54,876 nt of DNA from a virus: positions 1 to 54,876 of IMG/VR virus record IMGVR_UViG_3300043015_002761, one strand, 5' to 3'. Below the pieces are notes generated by a model. That model made no database searches and had not been told where the DNA came from. It saw nothing but the letters and a program-made list of their open reading frames with translations. Below, piece by piece: positions 9,911-21,551 of this stretch. Position 1 is the first letter of the stretch, and each line of letters begins with the position of its first letter. Position numbers and translations under genes: made by a program.

Positions 9911-12532
9911 TTAAGTAGCAAATCTAGGATTTGGATTAAGTTTACCAACCCTACCTGTACCAGCACTTGTATCTTTCAATCCGTTATTTAATGTTTGTCT
10001 AGCGTAAGCGTTATTAACAATATTTTCAACTATTAAATTAGCTAAAGAAGTATCACTACCAAGACCATTAATATTAATATCAATTTTTTGGTTTTCATGT
10101 TTATGTATAACTTCAGATTTACCTCCATTATTACCAGTAAATTCTTTAGCAGCCTTATCCAACTTACCTTCTTGTGTTGAAGCTAAAAGAACGTCATTTA
10201 CCTTCATAAATTTATCCTTTGGGTTAAATTGAATTATACCATCACTAACGTTACTTATATCACCACCTTTTCTACCTGTGGTACCCTTGTTTTTGTCACC
10301 AAAAAATTCATCATAAATACCCATTCCTCCACCAATAAGTCCACCAATAACACCTCCAGCAACATTACCCAATCCTGGTATAACACTACCTAATAGAGCA
10401 CCATAACCAGCATATTCAGCAGCTTTACCAGCAACACCAATACTTTTCCCCAAATTACTATCTGGGTCATCCATAAATCCTCTACCAACATCAGCCGCAA
10501 GTGCTACAGCACCAAGACCAGTAAACGCTTTAGTACCCTTGGCTAAAGATTTACCTAATTTCATTGTACCACCAAAACCGAAACCACCCTTATTACCAAT
10601 CTTTGTTGCTTTAGCTAATAAATTCCTTCTCATACCACCTTTCTTACCACCTCTTAGAAACCTACTAAGCATATTACCACCACCTACGTCAGAACCACCG
10701 CCTCCGCCTCCACCAACATTAGCCACTGTATTAAAACCTTTACCAAGCATCATACCATTTGCATACCATTTCATACTATCCCATAAGAATCCACCTACAG
10801 TTTTAAGTAATAATGCCGAACCAGCAATAAACGCTGTCTTTATTGGGTTATCTGTTATCCATTTAACTAACGTACCAGCTAATTCAACAGCTCCTTTAAC
10901 AAAATCTTTTAATCTATCTAAGAAACCACTATTTTTTAAATTTTCAACAAAGTTTTGTAGAGGTTCACCAACAAATTCTTTAAGTTTTATTGCGACATCT
11001 AAAAACTGTTGTTTAAGTGTTTGTATAGTGTCATTTATGGTATCATCGAATGTCCTAGCTTGTTTTGCCCTCTCTTCTAATGATTGTTTTTGTGTTTTAA
11101 TACTTTCTAAGTCAGCCTTCTTAAGGTCTTTAACATCTCTACTAAACGTACCAACATTAATTTCCCATTGACCAGATTCTTGATTAAATTTAGCAAGACT
11201 TGAAACTAATTCCTTATCTTTTTCATTCATACTTATTGGTGATACTTGTCCAATAGCTTCTACCCTCTTTTGAGCTTCAGCCATCTTAGTTAACTCTTCA
11301 ACACCAATACCAGTAATCTTAGATATTTCTCGCAACCTATCTCTCGCTAGACCACCCTTAACTTCGAATGTACCACTTTCTTTGTTAAACTTAACAAATT
11401 CACCCGCAGCCTTACCAATGTCCTTAGCAAACCCCTCAAAATCGTTCCTAGCTTTAAACATTAATTGCATTGGGTTACCAAGTTTAGCAAACTCACCACC
11501 CATTGTACTAAGTTGAGCCGCCATCTCAATAGCGCCTTCTGGTCTAAACACCTTTTCAGCCATACCAGCAATACCATCCATATCTAACTTAAGTCTAAGT
11601 GCATCAGCTGACATTTTACCTAATGCTTTAACACCACCCTTAAATCCGTACTTTTGAGCTAATTTTAAATTCTTTTGAAGTGTTGATGCTGCCTTAGATG
11701 AATTAACACCCATTTCACCAGCTGTATTCATTGTATCCTCAACTAGTTTAGCTGAAGCTTCAACACTCATACCGAAGTCATCAGCTGAAGCCGCCATTTG
11801 TACCGCAAATTCAGCACCAAGACCAGTACCTTGTGACATACCAGCCATAGCTTTAAGACCACCTTCAGTAAGCTTAACACTTCTACCTATTTCCTCACTA
11901 TAACCTCTTTGTAATTTTGCTAATTCTTTGATGTTAACACCCATCATGGTTGTTGAATCAGCAGCTCTATTCATATTAGTTGCGAAAGCTTCGTATTGCT
12001 TGTTACCAATCCCCATACTTCTGGCAGCATTACGAATTTCTCTATCCATCTCAAAGATACCAGATTTTTTAATCTTATCAACAGCCCAACCGATAACTTT
12101 ACCAGTAGTTTTAAACCCAGCTTTTAATAAATTAGCTTTCCTAACTGATTTACTTATTTCTTCAGTTTGTTTTTCTAGCTCTTTAGTTTGTTCTTCAAGG
12201 TAGTCTAAATTCTTTTTTCTATATTTAACTTGTTGTTTTAAGGTTTTAAGTATTTCTTTTTCTTTATTACTTAAATAACCATTTTGTTTCTTTTGTTTTT
12301 CCTTAAGGTCTTTTAATTGTTTTTCTTCATCCTTTAATTTTTTAGCTTCTTCAGCTTCTTTTTGTTTAAGATGAGTAATATCCTTCTGTAATTGGTTAAC
12401 TTTAGCTAATGCCTCAAAATAACCACCAAGACCCTTTTCAAGCTCTTGCTGCATCTTTCTTTGGTCTTCTAACTGTTTTTTAATATCAGATAAATTACCT
12501 TTCCATCTGTCAAATCCATTATTTTCAGCCAT
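9911..12532 (-). CDS. Tail tape measure protein
   Basis: An 873-residue tape measure protein, the helical ruler inside the tail tube. The first ~130 residues are a charged Lys/Glu/Gln coiled coil (KQLEDQRKMQQELEKGL onward). The middle is alanine- and lysine-rich helix. About residue 575 has a hydrophobic stretch (IKTAFIAGSALLLKTVGG), about 611 a glycine run, and about 715-740 a Gly-rich hydrophobic segment (SVIPGLGNVAGGVIGGLIGG) typical of tape measures that contact or cross the inner membrane. T4 gp29 is 590 residues; at ~0.15 nm per residue 873 would imply a tail near 130 nm (inference). It starts 6 nt after the 672-residue gene and is the last gene of that unit. The chaperone pair is two genes upstream, the usual neighbourhood. 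Confidence 0.85.
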   Translation of the reverse strand: MAENNGFDRWKGNLSDIKKQLEDQRKMQQELEKGLGGYFEALAKVNQLQKDITHLKQKEAEEAKKLKDEEKQLKDLKEKQKKQNGYLSNKEKEILKTLKQQVKYRKKNLDYLEEQTKELEKQTEEISKSVRKANLLKAGFKTTGKVIGWAVDKIKKSGIFEMDREIRNAARSMGIGNKQYEAFATNMNRAADSTTMMGVNIKELAKLQRGYSEEIGRSVKLTEGGLKAMAGMSQGTGLGAEFAVQMAASADDFGMSVEASAKLVEDTMNTAGEMGVNSSKAASTLQKNLKLAQKYGFKGGVKALGKMSADALRLKLDMDGIAGMAEKVFRPEGAIEMAAQLSTMGGEFAKLGNPMQLMFKARNDFEGFAKDIGKAAGEFVKFNKESGTFEVKGGLARDRLREISKITGIGVEELTKMAEAQKRVEAIGQVSPISMNEKDKELVSSLAKFNQESGQWEINVGTFSRDVKDLKKADLESIKTQKQSLEERAKQARTFDDTINDTIQTLKQQFLDVAIKLKEFVGEPLQNFVENLKNSGFLDRLKDFVKGAVELAGTLVKWITDNPIKTAFIAGSALLLKTVGGFLWDSMKWYANGMMLGKGFNTVANVGGGGGGGSDVGGGNMLSRFLRGGKKGGMRRNLLAKATKIGNKGGFGFGGTMKLGKSLAKGTKAFTGLGAVALAADVGRGFMDDPDSNLGKSIGVAGKAAEYAGYGALLGSVIPGLGNVAGGVIGGLIGGGMGIYDEFFGDKNKGTTGRKGGDISNVSDGIIQFNPKDKFMKVNDVLLASTQEGKLDKAAKEFTGNNGGKSEVIHKHENQKIDININGLGSDTSLANLIVENIVNNAYARQTLNNGLKDTSAGTGRVGKLNPNPRFAT

Positions 12533-12538
12533 TATCTA

Positions 12539-14557
12539 TTACTTTTTTTCTTGTTTATTTTCTTCTTTCTTTATTTCTACAACACCTTCACCAACTTCTG
12601 GGTTAGTTTTATTATTACCAGTGTTATAATATATCTTAACCTCATACTTTAATAATTTATCAGTTTCATCTAACTTCTTATTTAAATAAATCCTAAAGTA
12701 TAATTTTTCTTCTTTATTTAAAGTTGGTTTGAAATTAGTTTCAACCATAGGTACGTTTTTATCACCATTAATTCTATTAGATTTAGTTTTAAATTTTTCA
12801 AATTTACTAGGTTTTATTGGTTTTATGTAAGAACTGCTTTTAGTTTCCTTACTATTTATATCACTTAAAGCTTTATCCATAATTTGTTCTTTAAGATTTA
12901 AATTAACAAACTGCATAGTTTTTATAGAATTCTTTTCAAATTCTTTAAATTCATCTATAACACTATATAACCTTTTATTAAGTCTATCTTCAGCTGGTAT
13001 AATACCTCTTTCATCACCAAGTTTTAATAAATCAACAAACCAATTAGGTTTTTTCCACATAGCATCGATAATAGTTTGATTACCCTTGGTTAAATCATCT
13101 ATTATCTTATTTATTTCCTTATCACTTAATTCATCAACAGGTTCAAAAGTTAAATCCTTTAAAACATCTACTAAATCCTCCAGTATCATCTGCTCACTCT
13201 TACCATTACCTTCTTCATTGGAACCACCAAGATATCTTTTAATCCTTAAATCAAATATGAAATCTTCACCCTCACCACTTTGTTTAATATTTACATTACT
13301 TTCATCAATTTCAAATTCTATTAAGTTATCTTTTAAATAAGAATATTTATCAGCTTCTAAAACATCAAAAGAAATACTATTATTATCTTTATTTAATACT
13401 TTTGTTTTAATTGTTTTACCGTCCTTAAAGTTAAATGATACGATATCATCTTCATTATAATTACCAATTTCAAGTGCTAATTCAGTCTTTTCATTTCTAC
13501 TACGCTCACCATTAGTTGAACCTCCAGATTTACTTTCAAAATCTAATATATTATCCAATATAAAGTCTTCACTCTTAGTTTCACCTTTATTATCGGAGCC
13601 ACCTACATATTTTTTAAACTTTAAACTAAATAAAAATTCTTCATTTTCACCACTATTTTTAATTTTAACATTTTTAGGGTCACCATTAAATTCGATGGTA
13701 TCACCTATAGATTTAGTATATCTATCTGATTTTGGTCCACTAACTTTATCTATTTTAAAGGCAATGTTATTACCATCCTTATTAAGTGTTAATAAATCTA
13801 TATCACCACCAGAAAGTTTAAAGGTATACAATTCATCCACCTTAGATGATAAAATCTCATCAATAAGACTTTGTATTTCGTCTTCACCACCAATATCACC
13901 TTCCTTAAAATCTTTACCAATATCACCACTACCAGTATCAATTGTAAACTTAGGTTTTGATGACGGACTTAAATTACAACTAAGACCTGTAGCTTCATCA
14001 TCGAAAACACCTAATTGAACATTTTTCCATGTACCATTTTTCCATGTGTCCCCATTATTTTTTAAATCATTCATGATTAATTTAGGACCCATCTTTAACA
14101 CTTCATTATTAACCAGTGTTGATAATTTTTTAAATTCAGCTTCATCTATTTCACCAGCCTTTTTAGCGTCTTCAACATCCTTAAATGTATTAAATTTACC
14201 ACCACTTTCCTTACTTAAAGCTTCAATGTTTAAATATTTCTTATGTTTACCACGATAAGTAACATTTCCACCTTGGATATCAGCACTAGTCACATGAAAA
14301 AAACTATTCTTATAAACACCATCGTTACAATTAATCATTAATAATTGACCACTAATTGAATCGATAACTTTAAAGTATAATTCACTACCTTTTTTATCAA
14401 TTAATTTAATAGCATCACCTTCTTTTACTTGATTGATACTATTTTGCATATTAGCCTCTAATAAGAGTCTATTATATTGACTTTCTGTTATAATAAGTTT
14501 ACTCTTCTTTTTATTGAAGATTCTATTATATTGTGATTCAGTAATTACTAATTTCAT
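12539..14557 (-). CDS. Tagged virion-associated protein with duplicated internal domain, unknown function
   Basis: A 672-residue protein of unknown function lying between the tail-assembly chaperones and the tape measure. Its N-terminus is a duplicated short motif: LVITESQYNRI (residues 3-13) and LIITESQYNRL (21-31), then LLEA with E34/A35. LxE before a small residue fits the T4 gp21 prohead-protease rule, so the tag may be removed. Residues about 45-120 look like a small beta-barrel (GDAIKLIDKKGSELYFKVID). Two divergent ~110-residue repeats follow, about 226-332 and 356-464, sharing FxLxxKxYxGGSxxxGxxKSE and ending in ILxxxxD. The C-terminus is Lys/Glu-rich. A TATTTAT element is 15 nt upstream of the ATG. 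It could be an internal head or tail-lumen protein. Function is not assignable from sequence. Confidence 0.65.
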   Translation of the reverse strand: MKLVITESQYNRIFNKKKSKLIITESQYNRLLLEANMQNSINQVKEGDAIKLIDKKGSELYFKVIDSISGQLLMINCNDGVYKNSFFHVTSADIQGGNVTYRGKHKKYLNIEALSKESGGKFNTFKDVEDAKKAGEIDEAEFKKLSTLVNNEVLKMGPKLIMNDLKNNGDTWKNGTWKNVQLGVFDDEATGLSCNLSPSSKPKFTIDTGSGDIGKDFKEGDIGGEDEIQSLIDEILSSKVDELYTFKLSGGDIDLLTLNKDGNNIAFKIDKVSGPKSDRYTKSIGDTIEFNGDPKNVKIKNSGENEEFLFSLKFKKYVGGSDNKGETKSEDFILDNILDFESKSGGSTNGERSRNEKTELALEIGNYNEDDIVSFNFKDGKTIKTKVLNKDNNSISFDVLEADKYSYLKDNLIEFEIDESNVNIKQSGEGEDFIFDLRIKRYLGGSNEEGNGKSEQMILEDLVDVLKDLTFEPVDELSDKEINKIIDDLTKGNQTIIDAMWKKPNWFVDLLKLGDERGIIPAEDRLNKRLYSVIDEFKEFEKNSIKTMQFVNLNLKEQIMDKALSDINSKETKSSSYIKPIKPSKFEKFKTKSNRINGDKNVPMVETNFKPTLNKEEKLYFRIYLNKKLDETDKLLKYEVKIYYNTGNNKTNPEVGEGVVEIKKEENKQEKK

Positions 14558-14593: not shown

Positions 14594-14625
14594 AAATACC
14601 CAACTATTTAATTAGTTAGGTATTT
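14594..14625 (-). terminator. Rho-independent terminator of the chaperone unit
   Basis: Arms AAATACC-C-AACTA (14594-14606) and TAGTT-A-GGTATTT (14613-14625) pair over 12 positions with one mismatch around a 6-nt loop. On the minus strand the stem ends in a T run. The stop codon of the 68-residue frame (14612-14614) lies inside the hairpin. Confidence 0.65.
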
Positions 14626-14818
14626 CTCCACTTTTTAATTTAGCTTTTAATTGTTCACCACCAACTCTAGTAGTTCTACTACCACTTGAATTACTACCTC
14701 TAGCTTGTGCCATCTTCTCTTCCATCATCTCGTTTTTCTTAGTGTGTTCATTAACGAGTGTTGACAGATAGAACCTTCTTTCATAAGTTGGTGCTGATAA
14801 AACATCTTGGTAAGTCAT
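14612..14818 (-). CDS. Tail-assembly chaperone C-terminal frame, likely reached by frameshift
   Basis: From the ATG at 14816-14818 this frame encodes 68 residues (MTYQDVLSAPTYERRFYLST...), but the coding signal begins earlier. The same frame is open back to a TAA at 14918-14920, and the stretch before the ATG reads like protein (EGLLEEIYVCIKHLG). The joined sequence resembles the C-terminal part of gpGT-type chaperones, in which a short alpha-helical domain with an S.P...RR.YL motif is added by ribosomal frameshifting. No ATG, GTG or TTG precedes 14818 in this frame and no clear Shine-Dalgarno sits before it. The likeliest product is therefore a fusion to the 379-residue protein, about 463 residues. 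Independent initiation at 14818 remains possible. The 3' end runs into a terminator. Confidence 0.65.
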   Translation of the reverse strand: MTYQDVLSAPTYERRFYLSTLVNEHTKKNEMMEEKMAQARGSNSSGSRTTRVGGEQLKAKLKSGEIPN

Positions 14819-14864
14819 ACCTAAGTGTTTTATACAAACATATATTTCCTCTAATAACCCTTCC

Positions 14865-16004
14865 TTATAATTCTGCGTTAGGCCAAAAAAACTTTGGTGT
14901 AAAGGGAAGAAAGGTATTTACGGACCCACCTCCAGGAGTCCTTACGGTGATATTCATATCGACACCGCATTCGATTGTGTTAAAGTATTCTCTTAATTTT
15001 TGTGCATCACCCACCCTCATATTTCTAACGAAATCTTTAATGTAAGTTCTATCTCTATTACCGTTAACATCTACTATTTGTGATTCTAAAACAAGTGTTA
15101 CTTCCTCGTTAACAGGATTATCCTTATTAGCGTCAATAATTTCATCTAATTTTTCTAATTCACCTACTGTAAGAATCTTAAATTTAACTAAAACCTTACT
15201 AAGTGGTAATTCATAAGCAAAAAGACCTTCAGAATCTGGTTCAACATTTAATTTTATTTGTCTTAGACTTGATAAGTTAATTTCAGTTTCAAAAACTTCA
15301 TCCTTCTCATCATAAACTAAAATTGGATACATCTCACCGTAACCAGTAGCCCTAAGCCAAATCATAATTGCGTTTCTATCACCAGGTAATAAATCTTTAT
15401 ACCTTAATTCTGGTTCAAGTAATTTTCTGTTAATAAGAATTTCTAAAAACTCACCACTTTCCATTAAATTTGGTGATGTAAGAATATTCTCATCAGCAGT
15501 AGTCATAAAAGCAACCTTAACATTCTTTTTCTTATTTGGGTATAATTTACCCTCTGAAGGTAAAGGTATAATATCAAACGGTTGATTCATTTGAGGTTGA
15601 CTAAGTAATTCAATATAACCATTACTAACTGGTTTTTTACCTCCGTCATAATCCCCATCATTAGAACCACCATTATTAGATGGTGGGGTTGGTGGTGGTG
15701 GGGTTGGTGTTTGAACTATTTCAACTGGTTGTTGAACGTAAGGTGTTGTTTGAGTAGACTGTTCTTTTCTCTTCTCATCCATTTGTTTAGCAATTTCTTC
15801 GTTTTTTCTTAATTGCTCTTCTCTCCATTTAAGTTGTTCTTCAGTTCTTCTTCTCATTTCATTAGCAGCTATAGATTCAGTATCAGAACCGTATTGAGGT
15901 TGAACACCTTCTTGTTCCGCTAATTCATTAGCAATCTTTTCACCAGTTTCGTTAGCTTGTTTAATTTGTTCCTGTGTAGGAAAAACATTAGGTTTTTTAT
16001 CCAT
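14865..16004 (-). CDS. Tail assembly chaperone / gp26-like baseplate family protein
   Basis: A 379-residue protein in two parts. Residues 1-145 are charged, coiled-coil-like and low complexity, with a Pro-rich linker (TPTPPPPTPP) and a Gly/Asn/Asp stretch. Residues ~146-379 match the pattern of the T4 gp26 family (T4_baseplate): IIPLPSEGKLYP, then VAFMTTADENILTSPNLM, then LLPGDRNAIMIWLRATGYG, then a Glu-rich acidic domain. In many T4-like phages this family sits just upstream of the tape measure and works with it during tail assembly. The C-terminus (FTPKFFWPNAEL) overlaps an open +1 frame that continues into a chaperone-like domain, so two products are expected. The ATG is 42 nt from a TATTTAT element. 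The chaperone role is inferred from domain, position and overlap. Confidence 0.75.
   Translation of the reverse strand: MDKKPNVFPTQEQIKQANETGEKIANELAEQEGVQPQYGSDTESIAANEMRRRTEEQLKWREEQLRKNEEIAKQMDEKRKEQSTQTTPYVQQPVEIVQTPTPPPPTPPSNNGGSNDGDYDGGKKPVSNGYIELLSQPQMNQPFDIIPLPSEGKLYPNKKKNVKVAFMTTADENILTSPNLMESGEFLEILINRKLLEPELRYKDLLPGDRNAIMIWLRATGYGEMYPILVYDEKDEVFETEINLSSLRQIKLNVEPDSEGLFAYELPLSKVLVKFKILTVGELEKLDEIIDANKDNPVNEEVTLVLESQIVDVNGNRDRTYIKDFVRNMRVGDAQKLREYFNTIECGVDMNITVRTPGGGSVNTFLPFTPKFFWPNAEL
14884..14891 (-). other. Putative programmed +1/-2 frameshift site (T7 run)
   Basis: The minus strand carries seven consecutive Ts (14891-14885) read as TTT TTT TGG in the 379-residue frame. Skipping one T, or slipping back two, gives TTT TTT GGC and enters the frame of the 68-residue ORF. 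The site lies inside the only stretch where both frames are open, between the +1-frame TAA (14920-14918) and the 0-frame TAA (14867-14865). Lambda-type chaperones use -1 slips and Mu uses -2. The exact mechanism here is inference. Confidence 0.5.
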
Positions 16005-16128: not shown

Positions 16129-16617
16129 TTAGAAAAGAAGTATTGCTCTATCAAATCTTAAATCAGCAGTGATATCAGCAATAGCATCATCATCCATTGA
16201 TAAATCACCAAAGTTAACATTGGTAAGCATTGTACCTTGAAGTACCCACTTTTCAATTACTACACCAGTTGGGTCAAGCATTTCAAGTTCTACGTCTTTT
16301 TTATAACCAGCAGCATAACCTTGTCTACCAGTGATTGATTCAGATTGTAAACGCACCCATTCCATTATTGCTTGTGCAGCAGAAGGACCAATAGGGTCTC
16401 TAAATGTTACAGAAATTGATTCCCAAGTAAATCTACCGATAACCCAAGTAGATGTGTTAAGGAATGGAATCTCAACTTCGTTTTGTGTAATTGAAGGTCT
16501 AGAAGCAGATGCTAACCACCATTCTTGAATACCTAAAGATGCTGGAAACCTTAAAAGCCATCTATTCTTTTTCTTTGGTTCATAAGGTACGGGCATTTTC
16601 ATCAATAAATCAGCCAT
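16129..16617 (-). CDS. Tail tube protein, T4 gp19-like
   Basis: A 162-residue protein, essentially the length of T4 gp19 (163). It has the family pattern: an N-terminal KKNRWLLRFPASLGI segment with the conserved basic-aromatic start, a central SITQNEVEIPFLNTSTWVIG stretch, WESISVTFRDPIGPSAAQAI, and a C-terminal VLQGTMLTNVNFGDLSMDDD followed by a beta strand. The protein polymerises as hexameric rings forming the inner tube through which DNA passes. It is monocistronic, with a TATTTAT element 38 nt upstream and a strong terminator just downstream, as expected for a protein needed in many copies. The sheath gene lies two genes upstream rather than adjacent as in T4. Confidence 0.92.
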   Translation of the reverse strand: MADLLMKMPVPYEPKKKNRWLLRFPASLGIQEWWLASASRPSITQNEVEIPFLNTSTWVIGRFTWESISVTFRDPIGPSAAQAIMEWVRLQSESITGRQGYAAGYKKDVELEMLDPTGVVIEKWVLQGTMLTNVNFGDLSMDDDAIADITADLRFDRAILLF

Positions 16618-16662: not shown

Positions 16663-16799
16663 TGTGGTTTTTATTTTTTTTAATATTTTTGTTTTAAAAC
16701 CACATGTACTAATAAATATTAATTAATTTGTAAAAAAATATAAAATTGTTTGTTTTAATTGAATATTATTCTTATATTAGTACTATAAACATTTTAAGT

Positions 16800-17468
16800 A
16801 TGAAAAATTTAGTATTATTTTTAGCATTTTTTATTGGATTTAATTCATTTTCACAAACTGAATTAGATAGTATTATGATTTCTCAAATTAATAAAATGAG
16901 AACAAACCCTAAATCATACATACCATTAGTTAACAAATATATAGAAATTCAAAAACAAACTTTAATATTAATGAGTAATCCTAATGTTAAAACTAAAACT
17001 AGTGTTAGTAGTGGTAACATGGATAAAAATAATGAAATGATTAATACTAAAACTATTAATGACCCTAAAGAAATCATTAGAAAAAATATAAGTGCTGCTA
17101 GAGAATTAATCGTTATTTTAAATAAAATTGAACCATTAAACGAATTAACTTATAATAGTGAAATGGATTCAATTACAGATTCACATGGTAAATACTTAGA
17201 TAGTGTTAAAAAATTTGGTCACTTTGGTCCTAATGGTGAAAGAGTATACCAAAGATTTAAACCAACTAAATTGAATGTATCTGAAAACTTAGTATCAATT
17301 AATAAAAAAGAAATTGACAATAAAGATTTTTCACAAGCTATCTTAATTTTACTTATAGATGCATTTATTGAAGGTAGAGGTCATAGAAAAAACCTTTTAA
17401 ATCCAGATATAAAATACATCTCAGTATATATCAGTGATAAATTATGTGTTCAAAATTTCGGTTTTTAA
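16800..17468 (+). CDS. Secreted CAP/SCP-superfamily protein
   Basis: I choose the ATG at 16800 (222 residues) over an upstream in-frame ATG at 16746, because MKNLVLFLAFFIGFNSFSQ (residues 1-19) is a complete signal peptide with the FSQ end common in Bacteroidota. No lipobox Cys follows. The mature part has CAP features: an N-terminal SQINKMRTNPKSYI helix, FGHFGPNGERVYQRF (about 138-152), SENLVS, then the signature FIEGRGHRKNLLNP (about 190-203) and a final strand. The His residues in HGKY/GHFG and GHR fit the CAP cavity. CAP proteins bind lipids or act on peptides and walls; which applies here is unknown. It is a lone plus-strand gene between minus-strand tail genes, suggesting a host-derived accessory gene expressed separately. 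A weak hairpin follows. Confidence 0.8.
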   Translation: MKNLVLFLAFFIGFNSFSQTELDSIMISQINKMRTNPKSYIPLVNKYIEIQKQTLILMSNPNVKTKTSVSSGNMDKNNEMINTKTINDPKEIIRKNISAARELIVILNKIEPLNELTYNSEMDSITDSHGKYLDSVKKFGHFGPNGERVYQRFKPTKLNVSENLVSINKKEIDNKDFSQAILILLIDAFIEGRGHRKNLLNPDIKYISVYISDKLCVQNFGF

Positions 17469-17476
17469 TAACCAAG

Positions 17477-17492
17477 TTGAGGTTTACCTCAA
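17477..17492. terminator. Weak bidirectional hairpin between convergent genes
   Basis: TTGAGG (17477-17482), loop TTTA, CCTCAA (17487-17492) lies between the CAP gene and the 380-residue gene and covers the latter's TGA. There is no good T run on either side, so it is a weak candidate. Confidence 0.3.
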
Positions 17493-18631
17493 AATTCTGG
17501 ACACTCTCTGATTGACCCACCAATATTAACCTTACACTTAGCCGACCCTTTTTCCCTATTACCTTTACCACTACCTGGTTTAATTTTCTTAGTCTTAGAA
17601 CTATATAAATTAGCTTTTGCGTAAGTAATCTTAACTATCTTATCAACAATAACCTCTGGCTCACTATCATCAGCACCTAATGATGAGTATTCGTAATCGA
17701 TAAGTATATCCACACCTCTATCGTCACTGTATTTAATTCTTGAACCACTCCTATCAGTATTAAATTCTTCTTGAGCTCTTTTTAATTCTTCTGAACCTGG
17801 TTTAAGACCACTATTAACTTGACTCGTAGCATCAATTTGAATATTAATACCACCGAAATCAATACCAGACCCTTCAATAGCTTTTTTAGCCTCTTCAGCA
17901 CGTTTTTTAGCTAAAGTATAATTACCAGTAGGGTCAGAGTCACTTATGTAACTAGGAGTCCTCTCAGCATCTGTTTTAGCTAATATGGTGATTGATTTAA
18001 TTGTACCATTAGTAGCTTCTATTGTTTGTAAGAAATTTTGTATTGAATTAATTGTTTCAGTTGGTAAATCATGTGAAAAAGTACTTTGTCTTTCAGCTGT
18101 TGGTATCGATAATGATATTGTATCTGTCATAACAACTGGTTGTTTAGGGTTTTTAACAATTGTGTCGTAAATAGTTTCAATACCAGTTATTACATATCCT
18201 TGATTTTTAAGTTTTGATAACATACTCTTAGTGCTACCATACTTATCACTCTGTCTAACGCTTATATTGGTATTATTCTTTTTTTCATAAGTATCGAAAG
18301 TTCTATTAATCTCTTGAGCATTTTTTTCCATATAACTTTTTAATTCATCGGAATCAATTCTAAGTTTTTCAGCTAAATTATTAATACCCTCTTCATTATT
18401 AAGTGTATTTTCTATTTGATTTCTAAGATTATCATTTTGTAAAATCTTTTCAGCTTTATCTTGAGCTCTACCTACATTCATACCTAAAACTAATGCAGCA
18501 CCTAAAACTAATTCTTTCCAACCTTCTTCAATAATCTGTTCCTCCTTAATTACAATAGGTTTTTCATTTTCTTTTATATGATTTACTAAAAGAGCCAACT
18601 GACGCTCATTAATTAATATTTTCTTACCCAT
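17489..18631 (-). CDS. Tagged protein with OmpA-like domain
   Basis: A 380-residue protein with a duplicated N-terminal motif, ILINERQL (residues 5-12) and IVIKEEQI (26-33), followed by IEEG (34-37). It parallels the tag of the 672-residue protein. A hydrophobic segment (ELVLGAALVLGMNVGRAQ, about 40-57) follows and could be a membrane or signal-like element. Residues ~65-130 are helical. Residues ~200-310 look OmpA-like: ITILAKTDAERTPSY, YTLAKKRAEEAKKAI, and a closing DDRGVDILIDYEY strand, the usual order of the peptidoglycan-binding fold. The C-terminus is basic and contains two Cys. It has its own TATTTAT element 15 nt upstream and lies just after the sheath terminator. I infer a virion protein that contacts the cell wall. 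The OmpA assignment is moderate. Confidence 0.6.
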   Translation of the reverse strand: MGKKILINERQLALLVNHIKENEKPIVIKEEQIIEEGWKELVLGAALVLGMNVGRAQDKAEKILQNDNLRNQIENTLNNEEGINNLAEKLRIDSDELKSYMEKNAQEINRTFDTYEKKNNTNISVRQSDKYGSTKSMLSKLKNQGYVITGIETIYDTIVKNPKQPVVMTDTISLSIPTAERQSTFSHDLPTETINSIQNFLQTIEATNGTIKSITILAKTDAERTPSYISDSDPTGNYTLAKKRAEEAKKAIEGSGIDFGGINIQIDATSQVNSGLKPGSEELKRAQEEFNTDRSGSRIKYSDDRGVDILIDYEYSSLGADDSEPEVIVDKIVKITYAKANLYSSKTKKIKPGSGKGNREKGSAKCKVNIGGSIRECPEF

Positions 18632-18713: not shown

Positions 18714-21551
18714 TTAAATATCATCGAAACTTGCACCAGTGTTCATAATGTTGAACTCAACACAAATGAATTCTAATGCTCTCGTTGGTTTTAAGAATAT
18801 TCTACCACAAAGAGTGTTTTGGTCGATTAATTCTGGTGAATCATCTAATACCACTCTAAAGTCTGTAAGACCTCTCTCAGCTCTAATATTGTCTAAGATT
18901 GGGTTTACAAGTGATAAGAATTGGTTTCTTACGATATCATCATTTTGTTCGAATAAAAGTCTGATAGAAACCGCAGAGATAAGTTTTCTAGCTTGTAAAA
19001 GAAGTCTTCTTACGTTAATTCTATTAAGGGCTGTATCTTTAACTTGAAGCGTCTTGTTACCCCAGATTTTGATACCTTCTGAAGCGAAAGTAGCGATTGG
19101 GTTGATTCTTCCATCATAAAGAGTATCTCTTTCAGTAAGAGTAAGTTTCTTTCTTGCTTTGATAGCGTTAACATCACCTCTTTGTACACCCGCAACTGCG
19201 AACCATGGGAATGAAATATTATCTGTAAGTGCAATGTTTCTTACTACGTCTCTTGTAGGTGGTACGTAAATATAAACATTATTTTCAGCATCATTAATTT
19301 GAATCCATGGCCAGTATGTAGCTGTGTAGTTAGAGTCGAATTGTCCGTCAAGTGAGTCAACAACATCTTCTGGTAATAATACATCTCCAGCAGCATCAGT
19401 ATCTGGTGTAGTTACAATATAAAGTGAATCTGCTCTATCTTGTTCTATCATTTCGATAGCTTCTTCTACTAAGTTAGTATTATCAAACGTGTCAATACCT
19501 GGAGTCGCAAATACGTTAATATTAACAGCTTCTGGGTTTTTGAATGACCAAATACCTTCTAAGTAAGCATAGTAATCTGAATTAATACCAGTATCACCAT
19601 TTGAAAGTGCTCTGTTTGAGAATACACCACTTAAAAGACCATCAGCACCTCTAGTACCGTTAATTGTGTATCTATCAGTGTTAGTTCTTCTAGTTCTGTA
19701 AATATCCCATCCATCAAAACCACCATATGGTGCAAATGTGAATTTTCTAGCGTAAACTTTTTCATAGTCAGTTCCAACTACACCAGCTTCAGTTCTAAAT
19801 TCAGCGTTACCTGTAGCAAACTCAAATACTGGACTATAAGTACCACCTGTAGCATTAATTACAATTTCTACATTATCAATAGTAGCACCAGTAGCTTCGA
19901 TATCCATATGGAAACCTTTAGTCATACCAGTCCACATTGATAAACTACCTTCTGGAACCCCTTTATAATCAAAGAAGTCTTGGTCAATACCAACAGTTTC
20001 AGAAAGTCCTAAATAGAATTTTCTCTTATTTTCAAATGTACCATAAGTTTGCTTATAGTCAATTGTTGGTGATTGTACTGAAGTATTAAAATTAGTTTGG
20101 TAATCTCTAATAGGGAACCCTACGAAACCAGCTGGGAAAGCATCACTTGTATCTGATTCTTCTTCCAACTCAACTAATACGTAGTTAGACCTAGACGCAA
20201 AATCACCATCAAGTGTACCTATTTTTTTAGCGATGTAATTGTTAGATGTTGGGTCCATTGTACATCTTGTAAATCTTTCAAGTACAACAGGCTTCGCATC
20301 TGTATCATCATATGCTCTAATTTCTACATCAAATTCTTTATCATCTAATTTAACGTTCTTAATAGAGATTTTAAATTGTCTGTTAGCTGCGTTACCATCA
20401 GAAATAGTCCAAAGTCTGAAAAGTCTAAGGATATTAGAACCTCTTAATTCAGAAACAACCCATGGAGTAACCGCTGGTTGATATTCAGTTAAGTAATCAT
20501 CAAAATCATTACTATAGTTGATTAAATTATCGATATTAATACCTCTAATTTTTTCAGCATCGTAGTAACTTTCAAACATACCATCAAATAATTCTTCAAC
20601 GAATAATGCTGTTTTACTATCTTGAGCACCTCTACCAAGTACTCTAGAAATATAATTTTTCTTAGTTTTATCAAATGAAAGTGAATATGAGAATACACCT
20701 TGAGTTGTAGAAACACCAGTTAAACCGAAATTACCCTTACCATCAGTTTCAGCAGCAGTAACACTTGGGTTAAACACTACATCTGTGAAACCAGTAAGTT
20801 GGAATCTCATTATTTCGTCAGCATCTACTGAACCTCTACTTCTAAGTAATGCTACAATCTTATCCTCAACATCTGAATAACCACTTGCAGAATAGTGAAC
20901 CGTAACACCAGAAGTAATACCAGTTTGTGAAGCTCCGAAAGTTCCAGCAGAAACTACCTTATGATTAATACTAGCACCACTAAATGTGTTACCGAATTTA
21001 TCAAATACAGGCCCAAGAAGTGTAGGTGTAGCAGCTGTTGCAGCTGTAGCTAAATATGTTAATTGGTTAGTTAATAAACCATTATCCCATAATGTTTGTA
21101 CAAATGGGTCAGAAGCAACGACTGTAGTAAGAACTCCACTATCAGCGGTGTATGAAATTAAACTAGCAGATGTAACACCACCAGCACTAGTTCCAGAAGT
21201 AGAACCATCTAATGCAGCATCAAGCGTGATACCCCAAGCCAAACCAGCATCGTAACCAGAAAAACCAAGAATCCTAGATACGAATAATTGATTTGACTGA
21301 GAAAGATAAGATTTAGCAATGTAAGGTAACTCATACTTTGGTGCACCATTGTCTTTTATTTTTGTTGCGTTAAGTCCACCAAAAAATGATGTGAACTCAT
21401 CATAGTTAGACACGAAGATTGGTTGGAACGCTGGACCTATCGTAGTCTCACCTACTAGACCAAGAGTTGTTACACCAACTTGACGTGTTACGAAAGTTAA
21501 GTCTTTTTCTGAAGTATAAACACCAGGACTTACAAATACCTTATCAGCCAT
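18714..21551 (-). CDS. Contractile tail sheath protein, T4 gp18-like
   Basis: A 945-residue sheath protein. The N-terminus (FVSPGVYTSEKD, then GLVGETTIGPAFQPIFVSNY and FFGGLNATK) is the standard sheath start. The C-terminal 250 residues carry the conserved core: WPWIQINDAENN, VPPTRDVVRNIALTD, FPWFAVAGVQRG, ARKKLTLTERDTLYDGRINP, then INVRRLLLQARKLISAV and the last strand FICVEFNIMNTG. T4 gp18 is 659 residues. The extra ~290 lie in the middle (about 100-650), where Thr/Gly/Ala-rich strands suggest inserted surface domains. Sheath subunits form helical rings around the tube and contract during injection. The gene is single, with a TATTTAT element 43 nt upstream and a strong terminator. Confidence in function is high; the role of the insertions is unknown. 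Confidence 0.95.
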   Translation of the reverse strand: MADKVFVSPGVYTSEKDLTFVTRQVGVTTLGLVGETTIGPAFQPIFVSNYDEFTSFFGGLNATKIKDNGAPKYELPYIAKSYLSQSNQLFVSRILGFSGYDAGLAWGITLDAALDGSTSGTSAGGVTSASLISYTADSGVLTTVVASDPFVQTLWDNGLLTNQLTYLATAATAATPTLLGPVFDKFGNTFSGASINHKVVSAGTFGASQTGITSGVTVHYSASGYSDVEDKIVALLRSRGSVDADEIMRFQLTGFTDVVFNPSVTAAETDGKGNFGLTGVSTTQGVFSYSLSFDKTKKNYISRVLGRGAQDSKTALFVEELFDGMFESYYDAEKIRGINIDNLINYSNDFDDYLTEYQPAVTPWVVSELRGSNILRLFRLWTISDGNAANRQFKISIKNVKLDDKEFDVEIRAYDDTDAKPVVLERFTRCTMDPTSNNYIAKKIGTLDGDFASRSNYVLVELEEESDTSDAFPAGFVGFPIRDYQTNFNTSVQSPTIDYKQTYGTFENKRKFYLGLSETVGIDQDFFDYKGVPEGSLSMWTGMTKGFHMDIEATGATIDNVEIVINATGGTYSPVFEFATGNAEFRTEAGVVGTDYEKVYARKFTFAPYGGFDGWDIYRTRRTNTDRYTINGTRGADGLLSGVFSNRALSNGDTGINSDYYAYLEGIWSFKNPEAVNINVFATPGIDTFDNTNLVEEAIEMIEQDRADSLYIVTTPDTDAAGDVLLPEDVVDSLDGQFDSNYTATYWPWIQINDAENNVYIYVPPTRDVVRNIALTDNISFPWFAVAGVQRGDVNAIKARKKLTLTERDTLYDGRINPIATFASEGIKIWGNKTLQVKDTALNRINVRRLLLQARKLISAVSIRLLFEQNDDIVRNQFLSLVNPILDNIRAERGLTDFRVVLDDSPELIDQNTLCGRIFLKPTRALEFICVEFNIMNTGASFDDI

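Follow-up and report, generated by a model that had tools for sequence, protein, structure and literature searches.

The window, that is, the whole analysed stretch of 54,876 bases, is the IMG/VR virus fragment IMGVR_UViG_3300043015_002761, and its source is an uncultivated phage of the T4-related kind. On the minus strand, an open reading frame of 379 aa (14865-16004, the 0 frame hereafter) ends at a TAA at 14865-14867 and contains a conserved gp26-like domain (residues 139-373; 14886-15590), preceded by low-complexity, proline-rich residues. A second frame, offset by +1 relative to the first, is open from 14917, immediately past a TAA at 14918-14920 that sets the 5' limit of any possible shift. 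Both stops lie where an earlier note on this DNA had placed them as bounds of an overlap, and the overlap holds the run of seven T to which the note drew attention (14885-14891). The run sits inside TTTTTTTGGCCT (14880-14891, minus strand), which reads in the 0 frame as the putative frameshift site TTT-TTT-TGG-CCT and occurs once in the window versus 0.01 expected; the observed frame overlap and T run are correct and far beyond chance. From GGC at 14884-14882, the +1 frame would supply an extension of 90 aa plus stop (14612-14884, minus strand), the C-terminal part of a predicted 463-aa long chaperone. The sole standard start codon near the beginning of this frame is an ATG at 14816-14818, which opens a 68-aa reading frame (14818-14612), and no ATG, GTG or TTG occurs in the frame between 14917 and 14818, as the earlier note had stated.

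The surrounding minus-strand genes follow the order sheath, tube, chaperone and tape measure. The tail sheath gene (18714-21551; phrog_23, E 8.9e-59) and the tail tube gene (16129-16617; phrog_4542, E 5.9e-28, with a weak match to Phage_T4_gp19) lie upstream, and the tape measure protein gene (9911-12532; phrog_167, E 1.5e-17) lies downstream. The locus had been described as occupying the classic position just upstream of the tape measure gene; the order of tube, chaperone and tape measure holds, but one additional gene (12539-14557) intervenes. That gene and the gene at 17489-18631 begin with related motifs (14557-14480 and 18631-18600, minus strand), namely KLVITESQYNR, repeated KLIITESQYNRLL, and KILINERQLALL, and comparable start motifs occur in the same neighbourhood of 12 related loci. 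Amid the minus-strand tail genes lies a plus-strand reading frame of 240 aa (16746-17468) whose N-terminus looks signal-like and whose HGPNG/HRKNLL pattern by eye resembles CAP/SCP secreted proteins. No tRNA genes were found in the window.

Profile and fold searches both point to the same family for the upstream protein. Its residues 139-373 match positions 3-232 of the 282 in phrog_150, annotated as 'baseplate hub' (E 5.7e-10), a profile that also matches T4 gp26 (E 6.7e-71) and T4 gp51 (E 2.6e-84), two proteins that are themselves mutually similar (blastp E 2e-6); Pfam T4_baseplate gave no match to the 379-aa protein. An AlphaFold model covering the 0-frame domain only, with phage-collection rows left out of the folding alignment, was confident (pLDDT 91). 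In BFVD it matched predicted baseplate hub (assembly) proteins of the T4-like kind (TM 0.6-0.8, E values as low as 6.5e-15) and the SP-15 'baseplate hub subunit', and a fold search against solved structures returned no matches. Comparing the N-terminal domain by profile with five sequences of T4 gp26 or gp51 was uninformative, unlike the phrog_150 and fold searches. Judged by profile match and predicted fold, the 379-aa reading frame is a tail-assembly chaperone of the T4 gp26/gp51 family, in keeping with the gp26-like identity first proposed for it. T4 carries two phrog_150-family copies (genes 26 and 51), and one convincing copy was found in each of the ten records with the +1 arrangement that were searched; one of these (G004) gave a second, weak match to a short frame (E 7e-4).

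For the downstream frame, a match to DUF6760 (PF20546) spans residues 18-79 of the open frame, and so begins upstream of the ATG at 14818, with a score of 23.5 bits (E 5.7e-5), which is below the curated Pfam cutoff of 27 bits and makes a kinship with DUF6760 suggestive only. The MPxxxRRF-type region of the extension aligned weakly with the end of gp51 (hhalign E 0.001, probability 21%), and no annotated phage was matched when the +1 part was searched by tblastn.

Conservation was assessed in related IMG/VR loci. A first scan yielded 35 close relatives, and further scans with the immuto and Mel-JY01 versions each retained the best 80 of at least 600 matches; the comparison set comprises 192 related loci among the matches listed, with non-redundant subsets of 106 genes and 103 loci. 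The downstream frame was offset by +1 in all 30 of the first loci with a significant tblastn match to the second part (the window included), and the distance to the 0-frame stop varies between homologues while the +1 relation stays constant. All 187 loci with enough downstream sequence are open in the +1 frame past the 0-frame stop, and the other five of the 192 are contigs that end at that point. Across the 103 non-redundant loci, frame 0 is free of stops as far as the site, stops in the +1 frame are confined to the region upstream of it, with none from codon -3 to +33 (103/103), and residue conservation passes from frame 0 to the +1 frame exactly at TTT-YTN-TGG-CCT. A shift to the -1 frame would be unproductive, since that frame has a stop one codon past the site in 84 of the 103 loci. 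The idea that an indel in the T run, through sequencing error or pseudogene decay, split what is really one reading frame draws on the error-prone nature of homopolymers; it is refuted by the comparative data and retains a negligible probability, since independently assembled loci and complete isolate genomes, about 190 loci in all, show the same +1 offset, and no relative with a single fused frame was found among those sampled. No joined gene is recorded for immuto, LIS04, SP-15 or Mel-JY01 in public annotations, where the second part is absent or listed as a hypothetical protein in its own right.

The codons of the site are nearly invariant. Among the 192 loci, TTT-TTT-TGG-CCT occurs in 145, TTT-CTT-TGG-CCT in 35, TTT-CTA-TGG-CCT in four and CTT-TTT-TGG-CCT in three; TTT-TTT-TAC-CCT is present twice, and TTT-CTT-TAC-CCT, TTT-CTA-TTC-CCT and TTT-TTT-AGT-ACC once each. 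In the 106 non-redundant genes, phenylalanine at the site is encoded by TTT in 104/104 and 85/85 cases (81% overall usage) and proline by CCT in 105/105 (41% overall usage). Among 85 conserved columns, the proline column ranks first in codon constraint and the two phenylalanine columns fifth (104/104) and fourth (85/85); kinship of the sequences makes naive codon probabilities too small, and ordinary columns of the same genes lack such constraint. The earlier note had placed the slip on the T7 run and had proposed aligning homologues to see whether overlap and run are conserved. Homologues share the overlap, the slip motif and the +1 offset, and in the window the site does lie at the T7 run, but the run is not invariant, given that TTT-CTT-TGG-CCT and TTT-CTA-TGG-CCT also occur. 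These variants place the signal in YUN-UGG-CCU preceded by UUU (or CUU), not in a homopolymer. The same variants bear on RNA polymerase slippage, by which the seven-T run of the window would give rise to mixed mRNAs: the 35 TTT-CTT-TGG loci, among them Flavobacterium phage immuto, and others with TTT-CTA-TGG have T runs of at most three and the same +1 arrangement, so relatives without a long T run leave this explanation scarcely credible.

The downstream frame could also be a separate small gene, translated by reinitiation or translational coupling from the ATG at 14818 or from a non-standard codon. An ATG is indeed present 22 codons past the site, but it lies beyond the conserved segment GLTxxYKxxLLEEIY, which a start there would remove, and it is not kept in homologues; it is therefore judged an internal methionine. 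In 31 of the 103 non-redundant loci the first start codon comes at least 10 codons beyond the site, and no start codon is conserved. The conserved stretch FFGLTxxYKxxLLEEIY precedes the ATG, in line with the claim of protein-like sequence ahead of it. Separate initiation also leaves the fixed +1 phase and the TTT-YTN-TGG-CCT motif unexplained. Two homologues do have a second part with its own ATG in another frame, directly past the 0-frame stop, namely L214 (2001-2714 and after) and L220 (2001-2705 and after). Both are distant relatives, and their sites, TTC-TTG-TAT and TTC-CTT-TGG-CCA, are degraded slip codons. Homologues encoding the two parts without a slip site had been named beforehand as the case against recoding, and these are such a case, but only among distant relatives that have lost good slip codons. 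By their sequence, they form a natural contrast: with the shift out of use, good slip codons have not been kept. A separate gene at the window locus is accordingly very improbable.

The direction of the shift had been given as +1 or -2 rather than the usual -1. The exclusion of -1 stands; of the other two, the site variants favour +1 and disfavour -2. A -2 shift would lead to the identical final frame with one extra residue (FFFGLT), and UUU-UUU in the window permits a -2 slip of the second tRNA. However, -2 re-pairing fails at the second base in TTC-TTT-TGG (the L205-L219 clade) and TTC-TTT-CGT (L226), and at the wobble base in the TTT-CTA variants, whereas with standard anticodons at least one codon can re-pair in +1 in every variant of the +1 type; a -2 shift is thus improbable. 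Bases 2-4 of the motif are TTY in all 103 main-set loci, so that the first codon can re-pair throughout, and in the L205-L219 clade the second codon alone can do so; slippage therefore probably occurs at either UUU.

The comparative pattern argues strongly (probability about 0.9) for programmed +1 ribosomal frameshifting that yields two chaperones from one gene, a short one of 379 aa and a long one of 463 aa. The frameshifted tail-assembly chaperone first suspected at this locus is thereby supported and sharpened to a +1 shift at UUU-UUU-UGG-CCU, common to a large phage group. Most ribosomes would stop at 14865 and release the 379-aa short chaperone (TAC-N), and a fraction would slip one base forward on UUU/UUU before UGG, where tRNA-Phe on UUU could re-pair with the overlapping UUU or UUC. 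The shifted ribosomes would then read the +1 frame to 14612, and their product would be the long form of 463 aa (TAC-NC). If the two forms work as lambda G and GT do, the tape measure protein would be coated by the short one and tail tube subunits would be brought in by the extension, and the shift rate would set the ratio of short to long form. What the sequence comparison shows is the pair of frames, the conserved site, the +1 phase, the family membership and the gene order; the ribosomal mechanism, the exact slip codon and the efficiency are what we infer here, as is the chaperone function of each form. No downstream RNA stimulatory structure rose above control stretches (z about -0.85, the same as in controls), and no Shine-Dalgarno-like stimulator was obvious. 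Codon usage in the window does not fit a simple hungry-codon model: UGG, next in the zero frame, makes up 1.05% of codons and counts as only moderately rare, and GGC, the +1 alternative, is rarer (0.14%).

A related arrangement was encountered in bacterial genomes. In a scan with a DUF6760 consensus as query (62.9 bits against Pfam DUF6760), all 80 bacterial genome loci (L228-L307; Chloroflexi, Nitrosospira, Actinobacteria, cyanobacteria and others) have a short reading frame with a CPxC motif ahead of DUF6760, which is encoded in the -1 frame relative to it, with the junction near locus position 2500. A G-run lies at this junction, in the form NNG-GGG-G in most, and 35 of the 80 have no nearby start codon. 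Context was checked for one locus, which is flanked by a sheath gene and two tube genes, the arrangement found in contractile injection systems. From these sequences, the arrangement looks like a -1 programmed frameshift of the chaperone in contractile injection systems, and the chaperone would then be built in two parts on the same plan but with its shift in the opposite direction; among the papers searched, none joined DUF6760 or contractile injection systems with ribosomal frameshifting. A single ancestral two-part chaperone may have come to be decoded in varied ways, by a +1 shift at UUU-YUN-UGG-CCU in the group of the window, a -1 shift at NNG-GGG-G in contractile injection systems, separate initiation in a few relatives and duplication in T4 (genes 26 and 51), the ratio of short to long form being conserved and the decoding trick interchangeable; we place this scenario at even odds.

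Frameshifting of the lambda G/GT type is conserved in long-tailed phages except T4 (Atkins et al. 2016, PMC5009743; Levin 1993 and Xu 2004 are the sources to which that article refers for the lambda chaperones and the conserved frameshift). T4 is the stated exception to the rule, and yet relatives of its chaperone genes appear to shift, a link between T4 genes 26 and 51 and the G/GT system. As in lambda, two overlapping frames lie between the tail tube and tape measure genes, and the recoding site and phase are conserved across relatives of the window locus. Unlike lambda, the shift here would be +1 instead of -1 (a -1 shift on a tandem slippery heptamer being usual, not universal), the protein belongs to the T4 gp26/gp51 family, and the site is UUU-YUN-UGG-CCU instead of an X-XXY-YYZ heptamer. 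The forward direction is the rarer one, and the site that goes with it hardly varies across well over 100 phage sequences. These make up a large natural collection of putative bacterial +1 frameshifts that involve neither an obvious structure nor a stop codon, and in public annotations the second half of such chaperone genes is missed or mis-started.

T4 gp26 and gp51 are hub assembly chaperones (reviewed in PMC3004832). The chaperone of the window shares their family (phrog_150) and fold, and gp51 resembles gp26 but is extended at its C-terminus, at the place where the window has its +1 extension; T4, however, makes its two forms from two separate genes without a frameshift, whereas the phages of the window group have one convincing copy. 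Vladimirov et al. 2022 (PMID 34826709) reportedly deals with T4-like TAC genes, and a 2025 article (PMC12846349) names it as the source for -1 sites of the poly-T kind in the TAC-N genes of T4-like phages. The article describes a -1 shift on GTTTTT in the Pakpunavirus/Vandenendeviridae chaperone, which resembles the window in its conserved poly-T-containing site at the TAC-N end and differs in its direction. Frameshifting of tail chaperones is therefore known and usually -1; a +1 shift in the T4-like lineage would be new, and the poly-T site itself may have an earlier mention.

A +1 shift in a chaperone pair has a counterpart in haloarchaeal myoviruses: HSTV-2 very likely uses +1 (Atkins et al. 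2016, PMC5009743), and the HF1 haloviruses have a TTT-CGC +1 candidate with a conserved motif (PMC7230728). The likeness lies in the inferred frameshift; the slip context differs, and these viruses are archaeal. At RF2 (prfB) CUU-UGA and at the UUU-CGN +1 sites of influenza PA-X and plant amalgaviruses (PMC10885494, PMC7230728), a P-site CUU or UUU slips +1 to UUU or UUC, as proposed here. Two related loci (L204 and L226) carry TTT-CGT at the slip site, the UUU-CGN motif of influenza PA-X, amalgaviruses and HF1 haloviruses, whereas in the window the codon that comes next is UGG instead of a stop codon or CGN.
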